Below, in pieces: positions 3,901-23,482 of a DNA stretch of 28,970 nucleotides. The stretch's first letter is position 1. Every line of letters starts with the position of its first letter. Origin of the DNA: a virus; the IMG/VR virus record IMGVR_UViG_3300021963_000506, positions 1 to 28,970 of that record, one strand, 5' to 3'. Both the position numbers and the translations under genes were made by a program. The notes under the pieces were generated by a model. The model saw only the letters and a program-made list of their open reading frames with translations, was not told the origin of the DNA and ran no database searches.

Positions 3901-4198
3901 TACCAGTGCTTGTAATGGTATATTTATAATCTAGTCCTGCGTTACCCGTACTAGTAATCTTATAGGTACTAGATGCACTAGCATTTTCGCATGTTACTAC
4001 GAATGGCGATTGCCAATATCCTGGCCATGTTTCTTTTTTAACATCGTATTCTTTGATCTGATAATAATCAGGTCTCATATCATACCACGGAGTTGGTGTT
4101 TTATTCTGTTGATTCTGTGTATCAGAAACGCCAGTTTTAATTTCTTCGTGTGTTCCATCGTCATAGTAGATTGTTACCTTATTGATCTTCTTCGTCAT
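3875..4198 (-). CDS. Hypothetical protein with C-terminal repeat, 107 aa
   Basis: The ATG at 4198 has GAGGAG seven bases upstream, which decides the start over an earlier frame opening. The N-terminal part (VTIYYDDGTHEEIKTG) looks like a short beta unit. The middle is Trp- and Pro-rich (PTPWYDM, WPGYW). The end holds two near copies of Y-x-I-T-S-T-G-N. It overlaps the zinc-ribbon gene by 20 bases. Function unknown. The repeat and aromatic content would fit a structural or adhesion role, which is inference only. Confidence 0.7.
   Translation of the reverse strand: MTKKINKVTIYYDDGTHEEIKTGVSDTQNQQNKTPTPWYDMRPDYYQIKEYDVKKETWPGYWQSPFVVTCENASASSTYKITSTGNAGLDYKYTITSTGNGNVDLSK
3921..3928 (-). promoter_or_regulatory. 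Possible T4-type late promoter box TATAAATA
   Basis: This exact T4 late -10 octamer lies 21 bases before the ATG of the GIY-YIG-like gene, inside the 3' end of the upstream coding region. Only two exact copies were found on the coding strand. Because it falls in coding sequence it may be chance. Confidence 0.3.
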
Positions 4199-12014: not shown

Positions 12015-12484
12015 TTCTTACTCTCTGTACCACTTTGAGAAGATTGCGCAGCAATGTTTAGAGATTTTATAAACTCTTTAGGTATTTCACATTCGCCACC
12101 AGCTGCAAACCTAGTATCAAACTTAACAACCTCACGATCAACGTATCGTATTACTTCTTCACCCTTTTCTCTTATTATTCTTTGTTGAGTAACAACTTTC
12201 TCAACAATCTTAACTGTTTCTTTTGCGCCTTCTGCTTCTGCTGCTGCAAGTTTTACCTCTAACTCTTTTACTCTAGCTTGCCACGCCTCTTCATTCGAAA
12301 TTGCACCTGACATATAAACACCAAATGCTATTAACACAATAGACACCAATTGTATTGGTGTCTTATACATATAAATTGCAGGAATGGGAATCAGTCGTAA
12401 AAAATATGTAACAGTTAGTCCCAGTACTCCTACAAGAAGTATACCATAAAAGATCCAGTTAGGAAGAAAGCTAAGAATCCACAT
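12011..12484 (-). CDS. Inner-membrane spanin-like protein, 157 aa
   Basis: Two N-terminal TM segments (about 10-30 and 42-61) are followed by a long periplasmic helix (residues 66-130, AWQARVKELEVKLAAAEAEG and onwards). A C-terminal CEIPKEFIKSLNIAAQ resembles the ends of Rz-like proteins. The gene order i-spanin, o-spanin, endolysin supports the call. An extra TM segment relative to classical Rz is unusual. Tight TAATG coupling to the preceding capsid-targeted gene suggests one late transcript. Confidence 0.62.
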   Translation of the reverse strand: MWILSFLPNWIFYGILLVGVLGLTVTYFLRLIPIPAIYMYKTPIQLVSIVLIAFGVYMSGAISNEEAWQARVKELEVKLAAAEAEGAKETVKIVEKVVTQQRIIREKGEEVIRYVDREVVKFDTRFAAGGECEIPKEFIKSLNIAAQSSQSGTESKK

Positions 12485-12771
12485 TATTTTTTAACGATGT
12501 AGCTTACGTTTTTCTGTCCGCTGGTAGGATGAATAAAAGTTTTCTTAAATACTTTTCCGCCATGTTCTTTAGCGTGCGAAAATGCATCTTCTTTTTTACC
12601 AAATTCATTGGCTGGAGCTTTAATCATAGGCGAAGCTTCTTCTTTTTTAACCGTTTTATCTTTTGAACCAGCAAGTTTACGACCAACTGCGCTTGCTAAT
12701 GCTCGTCCAGCTACAGAACCAAGTGCAATAAGAGCTGGATTTTCTAGAATAAATTCTTTAAATGTTTTCAT
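12484..12771 (-). CDS. Small internal head protein with capsid targeting sequence, 95 aa
   Basis: The N-terminus MKTFKEFILE is almost identical to the T4 internal-protein targeting sequence MKTYQEFIAE, with Glu10 at the prohead-protease site (IxE). Cleavage would leave 85 residues: an Ala/Gly-rich helix (ALIALGSVAGRALASAVGRK), a Lys-rich linker and a small C-terminal unit (FGKKEDAFSHAKEHGGKVF). In T4 such proteins are packed with the DNA and injected. The net charge is basic, which suits DNA contact. It is a candidate functional counterpart of T4 IPI*. The activity is unknown. Confidence 0.8.
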   Translation of the reverse strand: MKTFKEFILENPALIALGSVAGRALASAVGRKLAGSKDKTVKKEEASPMIKAPANEFGKKEDAFSHAKEHGGKVFKKTFIHPTSGQKNVSYIVKK

Positions 12772-13313
12772 TGCCCCACCTGTAAGTTCTTTTTTCTACG
12801 AACCATATAATCAGGAACTCCCATAATTCCAGATATAGGTTTACCTTTTTTATTTAGTCTTATTGCAGCTTGGTCTGTTGAAGTTGCAGTACCAGTAGTA
12901 TTTGCTACACCATCCTCGTATACTCTCATAAATTTTTCTATGAGAATCTCTTCTTCAACTAAAGTGATATTGTTGTTTTCTAGAATATTAATCGTTTCCT
13001 GTAATTCACCTTGAGTTATCTTTTTTCCATTAATATATGACTCTTTAATAAGCCAATATGCTGCGACTAAACTTTTAAGTCTATTATCGCCACCAGGAAG
13101 TTTAGCAAGAATACGCTTTAAAGAAAACACTAATTTATCAAGTTGTGTATAAGAATCTTTTTCATCTTCGGTTTTAAGATCGCGCGTCTTCTTAAGAGGC
13201 TTACCATCCTTATCGATGATGCCATACTTGTATGCTTCTGTTTTCTCGAAAGGAGTAACGAGCATATATAAAATCTTAAAAGCTATAAGATTGTTAACAA
13301 TTCTACCAGCCAT
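12768..13313 (-). CDS. Conserved T4-like phage protein, 181 aa
   Basis: It starts with ATG coupled to the preceding stop. The N-terminal IVNNLIAFKILYMLVTPFEK, the central LPGGDNRLKSLVAAYWLIKE and the C-terminal tail GIMGVPDYMVRRKK are blocks I remember from an uncharacterised family next to virion genes in marine T4-like phages. Mostly helical, with no signal peptide and no catalytic motif visible. The position between head and lysis genes suggests a virion or assembly role, by context only. Confidence 0.8.
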   Translation of the reverse strand: MAGRIVNNLIAFKILYMLVTPFEKTEAYKYGIIDKDGKPLKKTRDLKTEDEKDSYTQLDKLVFSLKRILAKLPGGDNRLKSLVAAYWLIKESYINGKKITQGELQETINILENNNITLVEEEILIEKFMRVYEDGVANTTGTATSTDQAAIRLNKKGKPISGIMGVPDYMVRRKKNLQVGQ

Positions 13314-13684
13314 TAAAGTTTCCTTAAAGCAATTACTACATTTTTGTCTAGTGTTATGTCAGACAACTTAATTCCATAATCTTCTATTTCATCAGGCATT
13401 CTATTAAGATACACTAAGAAAGTAATTAATATCGGCCAATCCTCTTCATCTATCTTCGTGAATAACATTTTAGTGAGAGCATCACCGAATAAATTATAAA
13501 GAACAATAATATGATTAAGAATTAGTCTTTCTCTGAGTTCTTGACTGCTCTTATATCTTGAAAATAACTTCTTAAGATATAAGAATCTCTTTAGATCTTC
13601 TTCAAATTCTTGTATACTATGACACTGCGGATTATCATAGTGATGCATAGCATACAAGAGAAAACTATCATCATTCAATTTCAT
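13313..13684 (-). CDS. Conserved phage protein, 123 aa
   Basis: A helical, leucine-rich soluble protein with the blocks LLYAMHHYDNPQC, ELRERLILNHIIVLYNLFGD and TKIDEEDWPILITFLVYLNR. I recall this as a family widespread in T4-like marine phages near structural genes, function unknown. No clear ribosome binding site lies before the ATG. A stable hairpin ends seven bases upstream, so translation may depend on coupling or be low. The next gene follows directly. Confidence 0.8.
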   Translation of the reverse strand: MKLNDDSFLLYAMHHYDNPQCHSIQEFEEDLKRFLYLKKLFSRYKSSQELRERLILNHIIVLYNLFGDALTKMLFTKIDEEDWPILITFLVYLNRMPDEIEDYGIKLSDITLDKNVVIALRKL

Positions 13685-13691
13685 AATAAGT

Positions 13692-13707
13692 AGGGACCGA
13701 AGTCCCT
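13692..13707 (-). terminator. TTCG-loop hairpin after the Ig-like gene
   Basis: On the minus strand AGGGAC-TTCG-GTCCCT forms a six-pair, very stable tetraloop hairpin four bases after the stop of the Ig-like structural gene. Only a short mixed ACTTATT follows, not a T-run. It is more likely a weak terminator or RNA 3'-end stabiliser that lets an abundant upstream message accumulate. Confidence 0.55.
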
Positions 13708-13711
13708 ATAA

Positions 13712-14272
13712 TTAGGTACCGAATGTCAACGTTGCTGCGTCGGAATTAACCTTAACTGCACCAGTTGTAGAAGATACTACTACACGATATTGTGAACCGC
13801 TATCAGCAAGAACTTGTCCTGTTAGAACAATCGTTGCATTGGTTGCACCAGAAACGTTAGCCCAACGTGCTGTAGAAGAAACACGCTTTTGCCATTGATA
13901 AGTCGCTGAACCCGTAGAAGCTGTTGCGGTAACACCGAAAGTTGCTCCACCAGTAACAGTTGTCTGGTTAGCTGGTTGTACGCTAATAGTGATAGATACT
14001 TCGGTATCAGCAACGATAGTATCATCGGCTGCATCACCCGATGTTGCGTTAGCAACTGACATTGCAACTAGCAACTCAGATTTATAACGTGATTCACCAT
14101 TAGAACCCTTATATTCATCGACTAACCACCAACCTGCGCCAAGGATACCCTTGCCTTTGTTAGTTGCTAGTGCAGCTTCTTCTGCAGAAACGAATACTGC
14201 TTTTGCTGCATCGGCAGTGCTCAAATATTTTGGCTTGCTTTCAGTAGCGTCTGTTTTTCCCCATAGTGGCAT
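13712..14272 (-). CDS. Ig-like virion structural protein, 186 aa
   Basis: Residues 1-85 form a unit starting MPLWGKTD that I know from abundant structural proteins of marine T4-like phages. Residues about 93-186 look like a bacterial Ig-type domain, with VQPANQTTVTGG, the TYQW core Trp and a DSGSQYRVVVSS strand. It is probably a head decoration or other exposed virion protein, comparable in domain type to T4 Hoc, though not shown here. AAAGGAG before the ATG is a strong ribosome binding site. A hairpin follows the stop. Confidence 0.8.
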   Translation of the reverse strand: MPLWGKTDATESKPKYLSTADAAKAVFVSAEEAALATNKGKGILGAGWWLVDEYKGSNGESRYKSELLVAMSVANATSGDAADDTIVADTEVSITISVQPANQTTVTGGATFGVTATASTGSATYQWQKRVSSTARWANVSGATNATIVLTGQVLADSGSQYRVVVSSTTGAVKVNSDAATLTFGT

Positions 14273-14288
14273 GGTTTTTCTCCTTTGT

Positions 14289-15785
14289 TTATTTTGTTAA
14301 GCGATCAACTGCTTTGTTGATGTTTGCTGAGCGTTTAAAAGATTTTGCTTTCCATTTATCTGCAAGATCAGTTGCTGCAGACTTTGAAGAAGGCTTTCTA
14401 GCTTTATCAGCCATATTTTCAAAGTCTGCTCCAATTTTACGTGTAACTACTGCGTCTCTACTAGCTTTCTTAACGTAAGAACCTAGAGTTGCCTTGCTTA
14501 TTTCGTCTAGTTGTTCGAACTCTTCCATAAAAGAATCAAATCCTTCTTCCATTAGAGAGTCAAAAGTTTCTTCGTCTAATGCAATTAGGAACTCTACAGC
14601 TTCGGCAAACTTATCCTTCTTTGGACGTCCTCTTCCACGCTTTGGTTCATCCTTTGCTTTCTCAGCTGTATCATTATCGGCAAATCTACGTGTTGCAATA
14701 ACACCAGTGGAAGTTTTCTTGATGTCATGACGAGCGCCAGCACCAGTTACACGATCAGTATCAAATTTCTTTTTGTATTCTGGTGTTCCTGGCCAAAGAG
14801 TTTCATCCATCTGTTCGGCTTCTTCTTTACGAAGAAGTTTGAAGTCGTGCTTGTCGAGCTTACCATTCTTATTCTTGTCAAGCTTGTGCTGGTTACCTTT
14901 AAGTTCTTCTTTCATTTCGCCTTCTTTCTTTTTATCTCTTTCGGCTTTGCGCTGAGCAAGATATGCTAGAAATTTATCGTCAGTTTTAGCAGCAACTTCT
15001 TCATTACGTTGCTTAGCATAGTAAGCTGCGAGAGCCATTTCTTTACGCTTCTCTTTAGACTTACCCTCAAACTTTGGATTATCAGACTTAACGAAGTCGC
15101 TAATCCAATCTCCTGCTTTAGCATCTTTACCTAGAACTTCTTGTAACTCAGAAACAATCTCGTCAAGTTGTTCTTCTGTAAGAGGAAGAGTGTGTTGTTC
15201 GATGAATGTTTTATAAGTTTTCTTTTCTTCCTTCATTTCTTCCTCTCCCTTGTTGAAGATGATTTTGTGTGCTCTGTGCTTGCGTCCTTGTTTGTCTACT
15301 TTATAGTCAGCGGTATCTTGTTCCGCCTCTTCATTGAAGTGGCTATGAGCTACTGTAGTTTTCTTATTAGAACCCTTACCGGATAAGTGAACTTTATCGC
15401 CTTCACGATGAGCAGTTACTGTACGATTAGTTTCATCTTTAAAAGAAGTATGTTCACCATCTTTTAATTTCTTAATAGCAGCTTGATGTTCTGGGTGTAA
15501 TGGATAAGAGTTTTCAGATCCATGATGAACAGTAATCATTTTACCCCAGCTATACTTATCTTTCTTGACAGTTACTGCTTCATCTAGTTCAATCTCTTCA
15601 TTTGCCTTACGAAGAGCTTTCTGTACTGCGGGATGATCAGATAAACCGGGCTTTAGTTTATCCATAGCTTTAGTAGCACCTGTCATATTTCCACCAGCAT
15701 AACGCTTGTCGTTGGCGATACCGATGCCCTGTTTGACATCCTTTTGAGTCATACGTTTTTCTAATATTTTTTTTATAACAGACAT
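14289..15785 (-). CDS. Large internal head or scaffold-like protein with EF-hand and AT-hook, 498 aa
   Basis: Highly charged, low in aromatic residues and built of segments separated by LxE-type sites (ELDEA at 67, QLDEI at 207, QLDEI at 426; also QMDET at 326). These resemble T4 prohead-protease sites. Residues 303-314 are a canonical EF-hand loop (DKNKNGKLDKHD). Residues 381-390 (PKRGRGRPKK) are a textbook AT-hook. LDEISKATLGSYVKKAS near 427 is a block I know from marine-phage internal proteins. An internal ATG at residue 184 (position 15236) has a good AGAGGA site and opens KKTYKTFIEQ, like a targeting sequence. Likely packaged or core protein; the role is inferred. Confidence 0.78.
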   Translation of the reverse strand: MSVIKKILEKRMTQKDVKQGIGIANDKRYAGGNMTGATKAMDKLKPGLSDHPAVQKALRKANEEIELDEAVTVKKDKYSWGKMITVHHGSENSYPLHPEHQAAIKKLKDGEHTSFKDETNRTVTAHREGDKVHLSGKGSNKKTTVAHSHFNEEAEQDTADYKVDKQGRKHRAHKIIFNKGEEEMKEEKKTYKTFIEQHTLPLTEEQLDEIVSELQEVLGKDAKAGDWISDFVKSDNPKFEGKSKEKRKEMALAAYYAKQRNEEVAAKTDDKFLAYLAQRKAERDKKKEGEMKEELKGNQHKLDKNKNGKLDKHDFKLLRKEEAEQMDETLWPGTPEYKKKFDTDRVTGAGARHDIKKTSTGVIATRRFADNDTAEKAKDEPKRGRGRPKKDKFAEAVEFLIALDEETFDSLMEEGFDSFMEEFEQLDEISKATLGSYVKKASRDAVVTRKIGADFENMADKARKPSSKSAATDLADKWKAKSFKRSANINKAVDRLTK

Positions 15786-16232
15786 TTAATTTCCCTTCAA
15801 GGATGAAGTTAACATCCACGCGTGTTTCTTATGAGTATCGATTCTTTGAGCAATAAAATCTGCTAAACCTTGCTCATTAGAATCTGTTGCAAGTACAAAT
15901 GTTTTGTTTAGACAATCAATAACTTCATTGTTGTCAGCTACTAAACTATTTAGCATTTGTTTTACGTTATCTCCAACAATTAACGAGTTTTCGGTTAATG
16001 TTGAACTTGTATATAATTCTGTTAAACTTGGTGGAGCGTACTCTCCAAGCTTTCTAAGATTCTCTGCGAGTGGATCTACAGCGCCATATAGGTCCTCGTA
16101 TAGATCAGCAAAGAAATCATGATACTGGCTGAAGTGAATTCCTTCAACGTTCCAGTGAAATGCCTGAGCCTTGAAGTACATGACAAATGTATTTGCAAGA
16201 CAATTCTTTAGTGATAATCTTAATTCATCCAT
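15786..16232 (-). CDS. Dps/ferritin-like protein, 148 aa
   Basis: The Dps ferroxidase set is complete with exact family spacing: H26, H38, D53 and E57 (FHWNVEGIHFSQYHDF, then VDPLAENLRKLG). Dps proteins form 12-mers that oxidise Fe(II) with peroxide and can bind DNA. Here the usual Lys-rich DNA-binding tail is absent at the N-terminus. The gene abuts the large internal head protein and lies inside the virion block. It is therefore probably expressed late, and may be part of or packaged in the particle. It has no capsid targeting sequence. Confidence 0.9.
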   Translation of the reverse strand: MDELRLSLKNCLANTFVMYFKAQAFHWNVEGIHFSQYHDFFADLYEDLYGAVDPLAENLRKLGEYAPPSLTELYTSSTLTENSLIVGDNVKQMLNSLVADNNEVIDCLNKTFVLATDSNEQGLADFIAQRIDTHKKHAWMLTSSLKGN

Positions 16233-16243
16233 TTTAATTCCAA

Positions 16244-18367
16244 TTATTTAGTGTATGTTTTGTGTGTTAAACGATCATTCTCTACTTTGCGTACTCTTGG
16301 TACTAGCTTCATAGCAATTCTATTAAGTACAACTTTTCTTTTTTGAATTGTACGTTCAATTCTTTCCTTTTCCGCTACTGATAATTTGCTTAGAGGCTTT
16401 CTTGCTAATCTCTGTTTCATTAGATTAACTGCAAGTCTACGTGCTCTATTATTAATTACCTTATTACTAGAGCGCATCTTTAATGCAATCTTTTGTCTAC
16501 GCTCGCGCTTAGCTTGCGTCTTTGCAAATCTCATCTTCGCTTTAATTCTTTCACTACGCGAAAGAACTTCCATAATGACTTCTTCTTTAATATCGATGAT
16601 ATGCTCGCCGGTTTCATCATCGATAATTGCTAGTTCTTCGTCGTCATATGCTTCGAGATAATCGTCATCAGTCATACCACCAATCATATCATCGATATCT
16701 TTATCTAAGAATCCCGATTCTCCAACACCATCGTCACCATCTATATCCATATCATCTTCTGTACCAAGAGAAGCTTCGCCAAGTTTATGTTTAATTTTCA
16801 TTCTACGATGGCTATCGGTTCTTCCTCCAAGTGATGAACCAACTTTCTTATGTTCTGGATCTTGAGAATGTTCTGCTTCTTGATCAGACTCATTGTCTTT
16901 TACGATATTCTTAACAGAAACTTGTTCTGCTACTTTACCAGCAACAATCTTATGATCATACTTAATGCCTGCATCGGCCGCCATCTTTAGCATATTGCTA
17001 ATAATAGACCATGCTTCGGGAGTAAGACGTTTATTTTTTACTGCACGTAATCCCTGATTAACCATGTTCTCTGGTCCACTCTTCTCATCTACATCCATTA
17101 CTCCTAGAGAAGATGCAACTATTCGAGCAACCTTAATCTTATCTGCTGGTGAGAATTTCATTTCTTGTAATCCTTGTTGTACTTCTTCGCCGAAGGCTTC
17201 ATCTTTGCCTGAATTTTCATAATCTATTAAAACGCCTTCTAACTCGTGTTGATGCATGTGCCAATAGTCTTCGTGATGCATAAATTCACCAACCTTGTTT
17301 AGGCTTTCACGAGCTTTTTCATGAGCTGCAATCCATACATCCTTTTCGGCATTAGTAAATTTTTCACCAGTTAAATGCTTATCGTTTAATCCCATGTAAA
17401 TATCAGTTGCTTTAAGTGCATTCAATACTGCAATGGGATCATGTTTGTGCGTGGTTGCGCGTTCAATAGTATCTTGGAATGCTTTGGCCGCATCAGCAGA
17501 ATGATGAAAGTTCTTAGTAGTGTAACCCTTATAGGAGATCTCTGTTGGCGTAGGACCAGGTCTAATATCTTCTTCAATATCTATCGGTTGAGCATCACTC
17601 AACCATTTCTTACTGAGATCACCTAACTTATCAACTACTGTAAGATAATTAGATCCTCGATCAACTATCTCAAATACGTTCTTTCCATCAGATACTTTAT
17701 CTCCAATGTTAAAGATTTTGCCAGCAAAATATAGTTCACGTAATTCATTCGTTTCAAACTTAACTTGTTCTTTAACTGGCTCAACACCCATGCCTTCACG
17801 AATATCATTCATAAGACGTTTGCCATCTAACTCGGTCATGGTATGTGGTAGACCTTTCTTAAAGAGATTATAATCTCCTTTCTTAGCGGCCTCTCTCATC
17901 TTAGTACCAGACATGCCTGATGCACTATCCGAATCTGGATCACGTTCACCTGCAGATACAACTTCTATCGTATCAAAGGTAAAGTTTTTTCCGTTATACT
18001 TGTTTAGTAACTGAGTGTATTCTGCAATTCTATCTGACCCTGCAACCATAACAAGGTTTTTATACTTCTTAGATAGCATTGCCGCTGCTTCCATGAATGT
18101 ACGTACTTGTTCGTTTGCTGCAACGAAATTAGTCTTAGGAAACATTCTCTTAAGGTAATATACCTTACGATCTACTGGAAGAGGATTTGATTTTTTATCG
18201 TGAGTACGTGAAGCGAATATGACGTGATCTGCCTTCTGTGCGATGGCGATCTTTTTAACTGCATTGACTAGTAATTCATGCCCTGTAGTGGGAGGTTGAA
18301 ATCTGCCAAATGCAAATACTACTTTTTTAGAGGGCAACTCCTTAATGAGTTGTCTATATTTTTTCAT
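16244..18367 (-). CDS. Capsid-targeted nucleotidyltransferase (NMNAT-like) with basic tail, 707 aa
   Basis: I chose the ATG at 18367 because GGAG precedes it and the resulting N-terminus MKKYRQLIKE fits the capsid targeting pattern. An ATG nine bases earlier is possible. Residues 16-165 are a nucleotidyltransferase domain: FGRFQPPTTGHELL (T/HxGH motif), VMVAGSDRIAEY and SGTKMREAA (the SxTxxR motif). This matches cytidylyltransferase/NMN adenylyltransferase enzymes. A central region of unknown fold follows. An acidic stretch (about 525-590) then leads into a very basic C-terminal 110 residues (AKRERRQKIALKMRS, RAIMK-type repeats), suited to DNA binding. Probably packed in the head and injected; the substrate is unproven. 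Confidence 0.8.
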   Translation of the reverse strand: MKKYRQLIKELPSKKVVFAFGRFQPPTTGHELLVNAVKKIAIAQKADHVIFASRTHDKKSNPLPVDRKVYYLKRMFPKTNFVAANEQVRTFMEAAAMLSKKYKNLVMVAGSDRIAEYTQLLNKYNGKNFTFDTIEVVSAGERDPDSDSASGMSGTKMREAAKKGDYNLFKKGLPHTMTELDGKRLMNDIREGMGVEPVKEQVKFETNELRELYFAGKIFNIGDKVSDGKNVFEIVDRGSNYLTVVDKLGDLSKKWLSDAQPIDIEEDIRPGPTPTEISYKGYTTKNFHHSADAAKAFQDTIERATTHKHDPIAVLNALKATDIYMGLNDKHLTGEKFTNAEKDVWIAAHEKARESLNKVGEFMHHEDYWHMHQHELEGVLIDYENSGKDEAFGEEVQQGLQEMKFSPADKIKVARIVASSLGVMDVDEKSGPENMVNQGLRAVKNKRLTPEAWSIISNMLKMAADAGIKYDHKIVAGKVAEQVSVKNIVKDNESDQEAEHSQDPEHKKVGSSLGGRTDSHRRMKIKHKLGEASLGTEDDMDIDGDDGVGESGFLDKDIDDMIGGMTDDDYLEAYDDEELAIIDDETGEHIIDIKEEVIMEVLSRSERIKAKMRFAKTQAKRERRQKIALKMRSSNKVINNRARRLAVNLMKQRLARKPLSKLSVAEKERIERTIQKRKVVLNRIAMKLVPRVRKVENDRLTHKTYTK

Positions 18368-18396
18368 ATGCTCCATCAATTATTGAATTGTACTAC

Positions 18397-18558
18397 TTAT
18401 TTATTCTTTTTATGTTCTTGGTCTTCGTAATCCGGTAACATTTTTGGAGTTACCGGCAATTCACCAGGTGTCATCTTTTTACGATGTAGGGTAAGCTTAT
18501 CCGTTCCTTCGTAACCAATGTTATTTTCTTCTTGAATAAAATCTTTAAACGATAACAT
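18397..18558 (-). CDS. Very small capsid-targeted protein, 53 aa
   Basis: The ATG overlaps the stop of the upstream capsid-targeted gene (TAATG). The frame runs 53 codons, starting MLSFKDFIQE, a capsid targeting sequence with Glu10 at the cleavage point. The remaining 43 residues are polar (YEGTDKLTLHRKK, then ELPVTPKMLPDYEDQ). It lies in what would otherwise be a 190-base gap. Such short injected peptides in T4 act against host functions. No activity can be assigned. Confidence 0.75.
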   Translation of the reverse strand: MLSFKDFIQEENNIGYEGTDKLTLHRKKMTPGELPVTPKMLPDYEDQEHKKNK

Positions 18559-19262
18559 TAGCAGTTCCACTTTCTAAGTGCCTTATTAATTCGTGAATCT
18601 GGATCACGCGCAGTCTTAGCGGAAGTTAAACGCTTCTTCATACCACCCATACGAGCACAGAAAGACTTACGGCGATTAGCGGCTTTACTTCCAGGTTTAA
18701 GCTTTGAAGGTTTAGTAGTTACTGCAGTTTGCAGATTACCACCAGTCTTCCTATTATAAGCATCAACGCCTTTTTGCGTTAGACCACCTTCAGAAGATTT
18801 ATGTCCTTTAGCATCAATGGCATATTCGAGAAGTTCAGCATCATCTATTGATTCAAGAGTTTCCCATATAGTTTCTGAATTAATTCCATTTTCTTCGGCT
18901 AGTTGTTCTATGACTTCTTCAATAAGATCAAATTGCTCATCAGCAGATAATTCTTCATTTGCTTTTTCTTTATTACGACGATTTTGATAATCACTAGTTT
19001 GAGCAGGAGCTTTCTTACGAACAGGTTTCTTGCCACTAATAATATCCTCTTCTCGCTTACGACGAGCAAAATAATCATTAGAAACTTCGTCTAGTTCAGT
19101 TTCTTCATTAGCAGCTTTAAAGTCTGCATCTGTAGGTGCACCTTTGCTACCAGGTTTGCGCATGCGTTCACCGGAACCAGATTTAATTCTTTTACGCTTG
19201 GCATGAATGTTATCCCACAATCCACGCTTGCCTTCTTTAATATATTCTGAAAAGTTTAGCAT
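18558..19262 (-). CDS. Capsid-targeted internal protein, 234 aa
   Basis: The ATG at 19262 has AAGGA seven bases upstream and gives MLNFSEYIKE. An upstream in-frame extension is rejected. After the targeting sequence comes a basic block (KRGLWDNIHAKRKRIKSGSG), then ELDEVS, a second protease-type site. An acidic helix follows, and a C-terminal basic block with KPGSKAANRRKSFCARMGG ends in KWNC. Both basic blocks are familiar from widespread, uncharacterised phage domains. Likely a DNA-associated internal head protein; the function is unknown. Confidence 0.78.
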   Translation of the reverse strand: MLNFSEYIKEGKRGLWDNIHAKRKRIKSGSGERMRKPGSKGAPTDADFKAANEETELDEVSNDYFARRKREEDIISGKKPVRKKAPAQTSDYQNRRNKEKANEELSADEQFDLIEEVIEQLAEENGINSETIWETLESIDDAELLEYAIDAKGHKSSEGGLTQKGVDAYNRKTGGNLQTAVTTKPSKLKPGSKAANRRKSFCARMGGMKKRLTSAKTARDPDSRINKALRKWNC

Positions 19263-19278
19263 TTTATTTTCCTTGGTA

Positions 19279-20505
19279 TTAGTAAATTTCTCGCCATTGC
19301 ATTCCAACACCAACGTTGGTGTTCTGTGCTCCAAGATTTGTTGCTACAACAACATAAATCTCCGAATCTGTAGAATCGTAATTTTGAACTATATAGTTCT
19401 TCTTGGCAGAAGATGGTAAGTTAGATCCTGGCGATCCACCAGCCTTTTGGCTACCTTGCGTAGAAGCACCAACCCAACCATTGTCGATTTCGTCACCACC
19501 AGTGAACTCCGTGGCGTCTACATTATATTGAACACCACTATCGGCGTCAACATCAGTCCATGTTGTTTCTGTTAGTTGACTTGTATTTGATAATTTAATT
19601 AGACGCCACTTAATGTTCTCGCCATCACTGAACATGTTAAGGTTGCCCATACGAACAATCATTCTATTCTTGTAACTTCTAAATGTATTCTTTAGACGAA
19701 TAGCCATGATTGGTGATGTTGAACCAGAAGTAAGAAGTCTTGGTGTATTTGAAACTGCCCAATCTTGACCTGCTTCAACATAACCACCCTCCGATAATAC
19801 TGTTGAACAGATCTGATCGAAATAAGCGCCTGCTGTAGTGCCAGTGTTTACTAACTCACAACGAACTGGTAAGTTTGGATTACTCATATAGACAGTAGCA
19901 AGATTATTACTATTGTTAAACTCATGCGCAAATACATACTCGCCATCGTGAACAAAACCGCAGCGAACTCGACCAACACCTAACCATTGAAAGTCAATCC
20001 AAGCTAACTGTGTTTTCGTTATATCAATATTAAATGCGCTAGGTCCTGTACCGTCGCACTGATCTTTATTCCACTGACTTTGTGTAAATCGTCTTTCTAC
20101 TGGAGCACCTGTTACAAAACTTCTAATCACCCAAGATAGTGTTCCATCTCCTGCTTGCTCTAAGAATATACCATCATTATCATCGAAGTAACCAGTACGT
20201 TTGATTGTGTTGGCAGTGGCTGTATAAAAATTAAAACTAGAAAGAATTACTTGACTCTTTCCGGGCATGTAGTGATGATAGAATTTTGTTTGATGAACAA
20301 TTCTACTTGATGAGTTAGATGTAGTCGACAATCTAGCACATGTTTTATTTTCTTGGAAAGCGACTGCGCCACCACTAACAGAATAGTCAATAAAGTTTGG
20401 ATCTAAACCGTATAGGTGTTTATAATCGCCAAGTGTATATGGCATACTAACGCGCCCACGACCAAACGCATCAATGTTTTGTTCTTCTTGAAACAAATAC
20501 GTCAT
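19279..20505 (-). CDS. Virion structural protein, 408 aa
   Basis: The ATG at 20505 has GGAG six bases upstream and overlaps the preceding stop as ATGA, so I prefer it to the upstream ATG at 20517. Beta-rich and Asn/Thr/Ser-rich, without TM segments. It contains long blocks such as IDYSVSGGAVAFQENKTCAR and ATANTIKRTGYFDDNDGIFL that I recall from conserved structural proteins in marine T4-like phages. The C-terminal IVQNYDSTDSEIYVVVATN and GVGMQWREIY look like a beta-sandwich domain. Probably a tail or surface component. Whether it is head, tail or fibre cannot be told. Confidence 0.8.
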   Translation of the reverse strand: MTYLFQEEQNIDAFGRGRVSMPYTLGDYKHLYGLDPNFIDYSVSGGAVAFQENKTCARLSTTSNSSSRIVHQTKFYHHYMPGKSQVILSSFNFYTATANTIKRTGYFDDNDGIFLEQAGDGTLSWVIRSFVTGAPVERRFTQSQWNKDQCDGTGPSAFNIDITKTQLAWIDFQWLGVGRVRCGFVHDGEYVFAHEFNNSNNLATVYMSNPNLPVRCELVNTGTTAGAYFDQICSTVLSEGGYVEAGQDWAVSNTPRLLTSGSTSPIMAIRLKNTFRSYKNRMIVRMGNLNMFSDGENIKWRLIKLSNTSQLTETTWTDVDADSGVQYNVDATEFTGGDEIDNGWVGASTQGSQKAGGSPGSNLPSSAKKNYIVQNYDSTDSEIYVVVATNLGAQNTNVGVGMQWREIY

Positions 20506-21266
20506 ACTATTCTCCATCCATCTCTATAAATCATTTGAATTCCACCATTATCTATCCTTAGAATAAATCCGCCCGGATCATTATCAACGTTTCCTTGAAC
20601 GATAATAGGAAACTTAGAACAACGTCCGGACTCATCTTTAATAATAACATATCTACCATTCTTTACGTTTACTGGTAGTGTTATTGTTACTGTTCCAGCG
20701 TAGTTAACACCAATGTAGTAATCTTTTCTACTAACCATGTACGTTGGAGTTATCACCAATTTAGTTTGGTGATCGAGATTGATAACGTCTCCAGCTCCAC
20801 CACCGGGACCAGCCGCGGATATTTTAGCAACCCATTGTTCAAGAAACTTAAGCTTATCTGTGACAGCTTTCATTTCATTTGATATTTCCGGAGCTATTGG
20901 CTGTTGGAAACTATGAGAATCTTTTGGAAGAGCTGACAAGTATTTTGTAACATCATCTTGTCTTTGCTCAGGAGTCTTGGGTTCTACTATCTCTTCTATA
21001 AACTCTACAGCTTCAGTTAATTTCTCAGGCTGTGGTGTACTCTGCAAATCGCTGAGCATCGCTGTAACATCTTTAGCTACATTCTCTTTAACTTTTTTAA
21101 TAAGTTTTTCTTGAGGATCAGTAGCTTTAACTTGGCTTAATTGAATTAACAAAGAATCGAGATCAGCTCTAGCATTTTCTTTAACTTGCTTTAGCGCTTG
21201 ATGTTTTGGATCTTTAGCTTTTGCTTCTGCTACAAGTTTCAGAAAGTCGTTTAACTCGCTGTTCAT
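20502..21266 (-). CDS. Structural protein with tandem helical repeats and beta C-terminus, 254 aa
   Basis: The ATG at 21266 overlaps the upstream stop (ATGA). Residues 8-75 contain two consecutive repeats of about 33 residues, each with a KDP/TDP turn and a K-x-x-KVKENV/QVKENA helix. A Pro-rich linker (about 95-125) and a Gly-rich stretch (AAGPGGGAGDV) separate this from a C-terminal beta domain (TVTITLPVNVKNGRYVII, GGIQMIYRDGWRIV). That domain resembles small phage fibre or baseplate tip domains. It is coupled to the structural protein that follows. A helical shaft plus a beta tip is inferred. Confidence 0.75.
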   Translation of the reverse strand: MNSELNDFLKLVAEAKAKDPKHQALKQVKENARADLDSLLIQLSQVKATDPQEKLIKKVKENVAKDVTAMLSDLQSTPQPEKLTEAVEFIEEIVEPKTPEQRQDDVTKYLSALPKDSHSFQQPIAPEISNEMKAVTDKLKFLEQWVAKISAAGPGGGAGDVINLDHQTKLVITPTYMVSRKDYYIGVNYAGTVTITLPVNVKNGRYVIIKDESGRCSKFPIIVQGNVDNDPGGFILRIDNGGIQMIYRDGWRIV

Positions 21267-22492
21267 CTCTGCCAACCTTTAATGATGTCAGCCGAGAAGT
21301 TTGCTTTGCTGAATTCCATACGATCTACTATCTTAACTGCTCCACCAGTGAGGTGATCAATAGCAACAAAACCTTCTACGCCAGTTGTCTTAAATCCATT
21401 TGCTGTTCTAAGAAAAGTACTAATGTGTCCGGCTTGATTCATTTTATTTATGATCATTGCTTTAGCCTCAACCAACACGTTAACTAAATCAAATATTGCT
21501 ACAATCTGATTCTGATCATGATGAGCAAAGAAGTTTAGAATTTTTTTTCTCTTATCTTCTTGTGCTTTCTTTCCGGCTACAGTTGATCGCTTTTCAATTT
21601 CTTTCTCGTATTTGTCATGGATATGGTGGAATAACTCACGCACATGGGCTTTAGTATCAATAATTTGTTCTGACTTTTTAATCTTAGAATTGTTGAACGT
21701 TTTAACTGCAAGTAGTAAGTCTTCATCGTTGCTTATCCCATTTAAAGTTGGTGCGCTGATGGAGCCAAATAACTTACCAGCGCGTGACAGAACGTCTGTC
21801 ACCTTCTTTGTTTCTTCAGCTGTGAAGGTAGCAGTACCGGAATAATCATGATAATTTGCATCGTCCATCCATATAGTTGGAACTGTAGCAAATTTGTCTA
21901 CGATCGTCTTCCCAAAGCTAGCGGTCATAGACTCAAATGAATTACCTGTATATGTAGTATGCCAAACAACACCTATCTTAGCAGAGCGTACTTTCTTGCC
22001 AAGCTCTGAATCAAATGGAACTGCATATACAATTGTGTTAGGATGGAAAGTGATATACTTCTCACCATCGATGATCTCGGTCTTCTTATCATTAGTAAAC
22101 ATCAAGTCGCCTTGATATACGCCTGACTTTATACCGAGCTTTGAGAATTCTTTTAGTGCTGTCTTAAACTTCTCGGCTAAATCGCCAGAAGTATCAGCAT
22201 CAATTTCTTTGTTTGTTTTATAAATCTTAGGTTCTTTATTGAATACGCCTTTTTTAGCGATAAAGAACTTTCCATCTCGTGGATCTATACCAGCAAAAAT
22301 TGCAGGAGCTCCGTCCCACTTCACCGTTGCAGTAATTTTGCTTTTGCTGTGACCGGCTAGCATGTCTCGAAGAGACTGTAAGAATGCGATCGCTTTGCGC
22401 GTACCGGTTACACCTTCGTTGAAGACGAGATCTTCAACGTGTTCCATGTGAGTATTTTTTTCTTCTTTTATGAACTGTTTAAGATTTAGCAT
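21263..22492 (-). CDS. Capsid-targeted ligase-like nucleotidyltransferase, 409 aa
   Basis: The N-terminus MLNLKQFIKE is a capsid targeting sequence. Residues 55-67 read ATVKWDGAPAIFA, which contains KxDG (K58), the lysine nucleotidylation motif I of ATP/NAD ligases and capping enzymes. FFIAKKG follows, GVYQGDLMF sits at 124-132 in the place of motif III, and EGFVAID followed by VKIVDRMEF near 373-395 in the place of motifs IV/V. I recall KVP40-type phage relatives of unknown function. It may seal nucleic acid ends or be an inactive relative. The start lies at the predicted transcription start of P4, with no ribosome binding site. Confidence 0.75.
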   Translation of the reverse strand: MLNLKQFIKEEKNTHMEHVEDLVFNEGVTGTRKAIAFLQSLRDMLAGHSKSKITATVKWDGAPAIFAGIDPRDGKFFIAKKGVFNKEPKIYKTNKEIDADTSGDLAEKFKTALKEFSKLGIKSGVYQGDLMFTNDKKTEIIDGEKYITFHPNTIVYAVPFDSELGKKVRSAKIGVVWHTTYTGNSFESMTASFGKTIVDKFATVPTIWMDDANYHDYSGTATFTAEETKKVTDVLSRAGKLFGSISAPTLNGISNDEDLLLAVKTFNNSKIKKSEQIIDTKAHVRELFHHIHDKYEKEIEKRSTVAGKKAQEDKRKKILNFFAHHDQNQIVAIFDLVNVLVEAKAMIINKMNQAGHISTFLRTANGFKTTGVEGFVAIDHLTGGAVKIVDRMEFSKANFSADIIKGWQR

Positions 22493-22535: not shown

Positions 22536-23447
22536 TTACCAAGGATCACCAGATAATTTTACTGATGAAGCCATTTTTTCTGATTCAAACTTAAAACGAA
22601 TCTTCATTATTTTCTTTTCACCAGCTTTTACGCCAATAGATTCATTACCAACTATCTCTAATTTTATCTCGTATTTACTTAAGGCTCTAAGCTTTTCATT
22701 ATCTGTAGGATCCATAACAACTGCTTTATATGGAGGTTTACTTCCCTGACCAGTAACTTTTACGTAAGGAGGAATTAATATTTCTGCGTCCATCCAATCA
22801 GATAATAGATACTTCATTAAGTCTTTCTGATTAAATTTCTTTAGTCTTGTATATAATTCATCACGCATTGCAGCTAGAATCTTAACGCCAATTTCTTCTG
22901 TATGCTTTTTAATACCAGGATTATTTCTAATATAATTTTTACGATCCTGAGCACTTGGAGGTAACTTAAATTTTATAATAGTTTGTTTTAATTGATTATC
23001 ATATTCATCTGCTAATTTAATTCCTAAATTACGATCTACTGTACCTAATCCTGGATTCTTAAATCCAATGTCTCCACTACCCTTTGTAGCTTTAGCAGAT
23101 AATCCTAAGAAACCTTTATTAGGTCCACTACTAAATTGAATTAATATATCAGTTGGGTTTTTCTTTTGATCTACTGGAGCTCCAAACGCAGCCGACATAG
23201 AACCCGGTCTAGCGGTCCACCATACGCCTTTAACTGAATTAGAATACCCGTTCTGTTTAGCCCATATTAAAAATTCTTTAGCCATAGCTTCAGCTTTACC
23301 GATAGCATCACTCACTTCATCTGGCTTAGCTTCTTTACAACGGTTATTATACTGAGTTTGCGCGTCCTTATCGTACCACTTGTTTCCGTTAAGGACGAAT
23401 CCTGTATAAATTTCATTAATATCAGATAATATAGTATTAGCCGTCAT
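22536..23447 (-). CDS. Conserved phage protein, possible PD-(D/E)xK-like fold, 303 aa
   Basis: The ATG has GGAG five bases upstream and follows a TATAAATA late box. The central block PTDILIQFSSGPNKGFLGLSAKAT has Asp, a hydrophobic strand, and SAK where restriction-type nucleases have (D/E)xK after a DILI strand. GVWWTARPGSM and WMDAEILIPPYVKVTGQG are further conserved-looking motifs. I recall relatives in T4-like phages without function. The nuclease idea is inference from one motif and could be wrong. It precedes the ligase-like gene by 43 bases. Confidence 0.75.
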   Translation of the reverse strand: MTANTILSDINEIYTGFVLNGNKWYDKDAQTQYNNRCKEAKPDEVSDAIGKAEAMAKEFLIWAKQNGYSNSVKGVWWTARPGSMSAAFGAPVDQKKNPTDILIQFSSGPNKGFLGLSAKATKGSGDIGFKNPGLGTVDRNLGIKLADEYDNQLKQTIIKFKLPPSAQDRKNYIRNNPGIKKHTEEIGVKILAAMRDELYTRLKKFNQKDLMKYLLSDWMDAEILIPPYVKVTGQGSKPPYKAVVMDPTDNEKLRALSKYEIKLEIVGNESIGVKAGEKKIMKIRFKFESEKMASSVKLSGDPW

Positions 23448-23474: not shown

Positions 23475-23482
23475 TATTTATA
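23475..23482 (-). promoter_or_regulatory. T4-type late promoter TATAAATA
   Basis: The exact T4 late -10 sequence (recognised in T4 by gp55 sigma with gp33/gp45) lies in intergenic DNA. It sits 28 bases before the ATG and directly after the terminator of the previous operon. It would drive the virion block below it. A second TATAAT-like run follows at about 23468, but with no good -35. Confidence 0.65.

Follow-up and report, generated by a model that had tools for sequence, protein, structure and literature searches.

Candidate T4-type capsid targeting sequences on five unrelated proteins, two of them predicted nucleotidyltransferases, in an uncultured T4-superfamily phage

The IMG/VR record IMGVR_UViG_3300021963_000506 supplied a 28,970-base fragment of a T4-superfamily phage (hereafter the window, meaning this whole stretch), in which five proteins begin with similar ten-residue N-termini. 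These N-termini are very probably T4-type capsid targeting sequences (CTS), the best explanation that we have for them, and packaging of the tagged proteins into the head of this phage is, in our judgement, highly likely. The virus therefore probably packs enzymes besides DNA into its particle for delivery to the host. A portable T4-type CTS, as proposed by a first-pass annotation, is backed by four independent lines of evidence: position-specific conservation, a gp21 protease together with its site in gp23, a homologue found in virions of cyanophage S-SM1, and the starts of podovirus homologues.

The window belongs to a Kyanoviridae-like group of uncultured marine or freshwater viruses. It shares with marine Kyanoviridae the gene order recombinase/primase-helicase, DUF6267, CTP-transferase-like protein, and the nearest named relatives of its DUF6267 protein are found in Methylophilales phage Melnitz, phage C48C1 and Stenotrophomonas phage DLP6.

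Five N-termini in the window

The CTS is known from the T4 internal proteins IPI, IPII and IPIII (Mullaney and Black 1996; Repoila 1994; reviewed in PMC9026906). Mutagenesis in T4 assigned residues 4 and 7 to targeting and residues 8 and 10 to processing, and Asp10 blocks processing while targeting is kept (PMC9026906). In the window, each of the five predicted starts proved to be an ATG followed by an open frame on the minus strand, and each fits the pattern M-[KL]-x-[FYL]-x-x-[FYL]-I-x-E, with F, Y or L at positions 4 and 7 and I-x-E at positions 8-10 in 5/5. The tags and their proteins are as follows:

22463..22492, minus strand: CTS-like tag MLNLKQFIKE of the DUF6267 protein (Glu10 in 31/31 aligned relatives with a letter there)
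21263..22492, minus strand: 409-residue DUF6267 protein, putative ligase-fold covalent nucleotidyltransferase (Pfam PF19782, E=1e-105)
19233..19262, minus strand: CTS-like tag MLNFSEYIKE of the DUF6321 protein (start of the open reading frame, ORF)
18558..19262, minus strand: 234-residue protein with a GLWDNIHAKRKR segment and a C-terminal DUF6321 (PF19846, E=1e-19)
18529..18558, minus strand: CTS-like tag MLSFKDFIQE of a 53-residue protein (tagged homologue in locus L013)
18397..18558, minus strand: 53-residue tagged protein (ORF)
18338..18367, minus strand: CTS-like tag MKKYRQLIKE of the CTP-transferase-like protein (Glu10 in 30/31 aligned relatives)
16244..18367, minus strand: 707-residue predicted HIGH-superfamily nucleotidyltransferase, NMN/NaMN (nicotinamide/nicotinate mononucleotide) adenylyltransferase-like, with a long variable C-terminal part (phrog_3041, E=6e-73)
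12742..12771, minus strand: CTS-like tag MKTFKEFILE of a 95-residue protein (ORF start)
12484..12771, minus strand: 95-residue tagged protein; the C-terminal half recurs as a mobile cassette (within larger proteins of relatives)

Behind the tags the proteins are mutually unrelated, as had been claimed: no pairwise BLASTP match below E = 0.3 was found among the mature parts. The tags themselves are identical at 16 to 24 of 30 nucleotides, and are therefore not recent copies of one another. Moreover, the start is fixed in several relatives by an upstream stop or by the lack of any other start codon upstream.

Lysine- and phenylalanine-rich starts could be a chance or compositional habit of AT-rich phage genes with no targeting role; this genome is AT-rich, and the strict pattern was fitted post hoc to the five sequences. 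We give this explanation next to no probability, and a chance origin of the tags is ruled out by codon shuffles, an internal-ATG control and a permuted-codon database scan. The motif search suggested by the first-pass annotation returned 5 matches in the window, against a mean of 0.02 when ORF N-termini were codon-shuffled with composition kept (maximum 1 in 100 shuffles); applied to T4, the same scan recovered ipII, ipIII and gene 61.1, with a shuffled mean of 0. Because the strict pattern was derived from the window itself, we also used data chosen without the tag, namely 79 loci picked by DUF6267 homology from which the DUF6267 and CTP-transferase-like ORFs were taken out. In these loci the T4-derived pattern M..[FYL]..[FYL][ILV].E stands at the start of 43 ORFs versus 1.6 expected (maximum 9 in 60 shuffles), and internal ATG codons match it in 4 of 3955 cases. 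Furthermore, the back-translated T4 tag MKT[FY]KE[FY]IxE found at least 120 IMG/VR stretches versus 0 for the same codons permuted, a limited control of one codon permutation with matches that include some near-identical T-even isolates; this gap leaves chance no room. The invariance of Glu10 likewise speaks against chance.

T4 gene 61.1 (NC_000866 18966-19130; 54 residues, labelled 'hypothetical') starts with MKTFKEFIKE, a full CTS, and is not annotated as an internal protein.

Conservation, protease and virion evidence

Conservation of the tag follows the positions that matter in T4. Counting the relatives whose alignment reaches the tag (the others are gaps there), a large hydrophobic residue occupies position 4 in 30/30 and position 7 in 31/31 DUF6267 proteins, and position 4 in 31/31 and position 7 in 30/31 CTP-transferase-like proteins, with Glu10 as listed above. 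Among relatives selected by their bodies, position 4 is F, Y or L, position 7 is F, Y or L (one V) and position 8 is I, L or V. Conservation peaks at 4, 7, 8 and 10, and in the DUF6267 tag positions 3, 5 and 6 drift. The tag is also the least confident part of the AlphaFold models of both the 409- and the 707-residue protein, as would be expected of a removable leader.

The protease that would process such a leader is present in the lineage. The search for a gp21-type protease proposed in the first-pass annotation was positive in the three longest relatives of the window (G001-G003) and in 7/7 reference T4-like phages (Peptidase_S77, the gp21 family), and negative in the 29-kb window, a result weighed below. 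An S77 protease of this family also occurs in 11/13 long contigs found via the T4 tag. The site aligned with the T4 gp23 cleavage site (LTE|A) reads L-x-E or F-x-E in all ten phages, which indicates that the target site of the protease is conserved in the lineage.

Direct evidence from virions comes from a relative. T4-GC190, a 'citidylyltransferase', is reported from purified S-SM1 virions in Sullivan 2010 (PMC3037559). This homologue of the window CTP-transferase-like protein starts with MKKFSAFLNE|AERSF, and we found no mention of its tag in the open-access part of PubMed Central, on which all our literature comparisons are based. It shares with the window protein a homologous catalytic domain and the CTS-like start, whereas about 70 extra residues separate its tag from the catalytic domain. 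The S-PM2 homologue of T4-GC190 has no such tag and was undetected in the S-PM2 virion, where several true structural proteins were missed too; this fits the reading of the tag as a CTS, weakly.

Tag loss in podoviruses provides the fourth line. The DUF6321-type protein of P-SSM7 starts with MKTYSQFIEE|GKKKGLWDNIHAKRKRG, a single step away from that of T4. Its homologues in P-SCSP1u and HTVC168P, both T7-like podoviruses of the Autographiviridae, are tagless and start where the tag would end (MKTYSQFIEE|GKKKGLWDNIHAKRKR in P-SSM7 versus MAKKKGLYANIHAKRKR in P-SCSP1u and MAKRGLYANIHAKRKR in HTVC168P).

These observations bear on two alternatives in which the tag has a function other than loading cleaved cargo. 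In the first, the N-terminus docks to the scaffold or prohead core, but gp21 leaves it in place, or the proteins are degraded or expelled after a role in assembly only. Targeting and processing are indeed separable in T4, where an Asp10 mutant still targets (PMC9026906), and some relatives have only part of the motif. However, Glu10 and the aliphatic residue at position 8 are the most constrained, as expected of a protease site, mature virions contain the S-SM1 homologue, and the catalytic motifs of both enzymes are conserved, favouring activity over a purely structural role; we judge the docking-only alternative improbable. The second would send the proteins elsewhere than the head, for example to the baseplate, a replication complex or the cell membrane. 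It draws on the neighbours of the tagged genes in relatives, which include the replication and metabolism genes uvsX, gp41 and RNR. Against it stand the identity of the pattern with the experimentally defined T4 CTS, the virion detection of a tagged homologue, and the loss of the tag in Autographiviridae homologues, and we assign this alternative a very low probability, lower than that of docking alone.

Several points weigh against a capsid targeting role. No gp21 protease gene was found in the window, though the window is a fragment. Some homologues lack a canonical tag despite gp21 in the same phage: the DUF6267 proteins of S-PM2, S-WAM2 and HTVC008M, the CTP-transferase-like protein of DLP6, and the DUF6321-type protein of HTVC008M. 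A universal tag is thereby ruled out. By the pattern used here, S-SM1 has one convincing tagged protein only, and the size of the packaged set therefore varies among lineages. Finally, the phage is known from sequence alone.

The tag is broadly distributed. The first-pass annotation had inferred a large packaged proteome, and this turned out to be a good inference, wider than could be known from the window, given the dozens of unrelated proteins that are tagged in relatives. In the collected loci, 292 tagged ORFs fall into about 93 clusters of bodies, with runs of consecutive tagged genes in L053, L209, L210, L215 and L240. The view of the N-terminus as a portable signal is likewise borne out by these 93 or so clusters, by the lack of similarity between bodies and by one body that occurs with the tag in P-SSM7 and without it in podoviruses. 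Recognisable tagged cargo comprises ART-PolyVal, S-AdoMet lyase, PAP2, lytic transglycosylase, NUDIX, GNAT, NT5C and nucleotidyltransferase families. The tagged proteins of L169-L248 and L053 form a ready list of candidate injected effectors.

Predicted enzymes, neighbouring genes and a working model

Nucleotidyltransferase signatures had been noted in two of the five proteins, rightly so for the DUF6267 and the 707-residue protein. Across 36 DUF6267 sequences, K58, D60, G61, E373, G374 and K387 are invariant, corresponding to a motif I K-x-D-G, an E-G and a later K. The AlphaFold model (pLDDT 80, low around the motif I lysine), for which four rows from named phage records were left out of the input alignment, was compared with known structures. 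The best 40 rows from VIA-align were all RNA or DNA ligases (Z 5.9-8.0), with RNA ligases in the top rows (Z about 8), and the two best Foldseek rows were DNA ligases, weak at E 0.1 or worse; a sequence search of the PDB gave nothing useful. We take the protein as a putative ligase-type covalent nucleotidyltransferase on the basis of this model.

In the family of the 707-residue protein, GRFxPPTxGH, GSDR and S-x-x-K-M-R are conserved in 37 sequences. Its model (pLDDT 86) matches NaMN adenylyltransferase (NadD/NMNAT) by Foldseek with probability 1.00 and E=5e-6. Pfam PF01467 scores above cut-off in the relative L027 and below it in the window protein, and a PDB sequence search yielded nothing useful. 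Judged from the model, it looks like a HIGH-superfamily nucleotidyltransferase of the NMN/NaMN adenylyltransferase type; 'cytidyltransferase' is a traditional label, and the predicted fold gives it no support over NMN adenylyltransferase.

Tagged DUF6267 is directly preceded, in several close relatives, by a tagged HAD protein with weak similarity to polynucleotide-kinase phosphatases (phrog_415):

L044:749-1369: tagged HAD protein upstream of DUF6267; also in L019, L020, L024, L031, L032 and L063

In HTVC008M, a zeta-toxin/polynucleotide-kinase-type kinase adjoins DUF6267. These HAD and kinase neighbours suggest a possible packaged RNA or DNA end-repair kit.

The C-terminal cassette of the 95-residue protein (EEASPMIKxPxNEF...KKTFIHPTSG) also occurs inside 707-residue homologues and other long proteins (relatives L289-L296; IMG/VR), and tagged proteins therefore grow and shrink by cassettes; a database search of named phages with the 95-residue protein gave only chance matches. 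Two other genes also lie among the tagged ones. A 498-residue charged protein (window 14289-15785) has an internal tag-like MKEEKKTYKTFIEQ away from its N-terminus and many [ILV]-x-E sites, and a Dps/ferritin-like DNA-protection protein (window 15786-16232) carries no tag.

A candidate promoter lies close to the tagged genes:

23475..23482, minus strand: TATAAATA, exact match to the T4-type late promoter (positioned by inspection; putative function)

This box is just upstream of the gene at 22536-23447, which precedes the tagged genes. The only other exact match in the window is at 3921-3928, and both are about 20-30 bases upstream of minus-strand gene starts. With one mismatch allowed, TATAAATA shows no overall enrichment (44 versus 73 expected), and the two exact matches alone deserve attention. 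Going by the box at 23475..23482, the tagged genes may be expressed late.

In our working model, the tagged proteins would be made late in infection with the ten-residue N-terminal propeptide seen in their sequences. Residues 4 and 7 of the tag would bind the prohead core and draw the protein into the prohead, as in the T4 IPIII literature and as conservation suggests here. The gp21 serine protease would cut after I/L-x-E at residue 10, so that the mature protein is released inside the head ahead of DNA packing. The mature enzymes would then exit with the DNA into the host cell, as is known for T4 internal proteins, and would act in the first minutes, before phage gene expression, probably against host defence or damage. 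Cleavage after Glu10 and injection in this phage are steps that we infer by analogy with T4.

We also offer, tentatively and as less likely than not, a more general proposal: in this lineage the CTS may be an all-purpose signal that loads an exchangeable set of early-acting enzymes, with a pre-packaged repair kit (DUF6267, the NMN-adenylyltransferase-like enzyme and, in relatives, the tagged HAD protein) as its core. If true, the kit would repair the ends of RNA or DNA and replenish NAD in the first minutes, against nucleases and NAD-depleting defences, and in environmental T4-like phages at large the tag would reveal injected effectors from sequence alone.

Injected phage proteins are a front line against host defence, acting before any phage gene is read; in T4, for instance, each of Ip1-3 disables a single type of GmrSD restriction enzyme (PMC12373910). 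Since a short leader is all that they have in common, injected proteins are difficult to recognise. The leader extends far beyond T-even coliphages to uncultured viruses of a Kyanoviridae-like lineage, where it stands on proteins with folds that include ligase, nucleotidyltransferase, HAD, ADP-ribosyltransferase and SAM-lyase. A ten-residue motif could thus predict in advance which hypothetical proteins are injected, and the tag offers an explanation for the 'cytidyltransferase' in cyanophage virions.

Comparison with known packaged proteins

The CTS is already known, and enzyme packaging in itself has a precedent in T4 Alt; the breadth of the CTS and its enzyme cargo in a Kyanoviridae-like lineage appear new in the literature covered here. 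The system resembles T4 IPI, IPII and IPIII in its ten-residue N-terminal propeptide with key positions 4, 7, 8 and 10, in unrelated mature parts, in the presence of several such proteins per genome and in a gp21-type protease in the lineage. However, the T4 internal proteins are small and basic, whereas the predicted cargo here includes 409- and 707-residue proteins with enzyme folds. The first-pass annotation had drawn this same contrast, which stands for the two enzymes and needs a qualifier, since T4 also packages the enzyme Alt (PMC9503650). Furthermore, the T4 systems belong to T-even coliphages, whereas the lineage described here is Kyanoviridae-like and known from sequence, with packaging predicted.

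T4 Alt, a packaged and injected ADP-ribosyltransferase whose N-terminal propeptide is cut off by gp21 (PMC9026906, PMC9503650), is also a parallel as a packaged enzyme, although the enzyme classes predicted here are different and the tags resemble the IPIII type. The giant phages SPN3US and phiKZ likewise package enzymes in the head as ejection proteins, whose propeptides a gp21-like protease removes (PMC5694885), but those propeptides are mostly longer than 100 residues, in contrast to the ten-residue tag found here.

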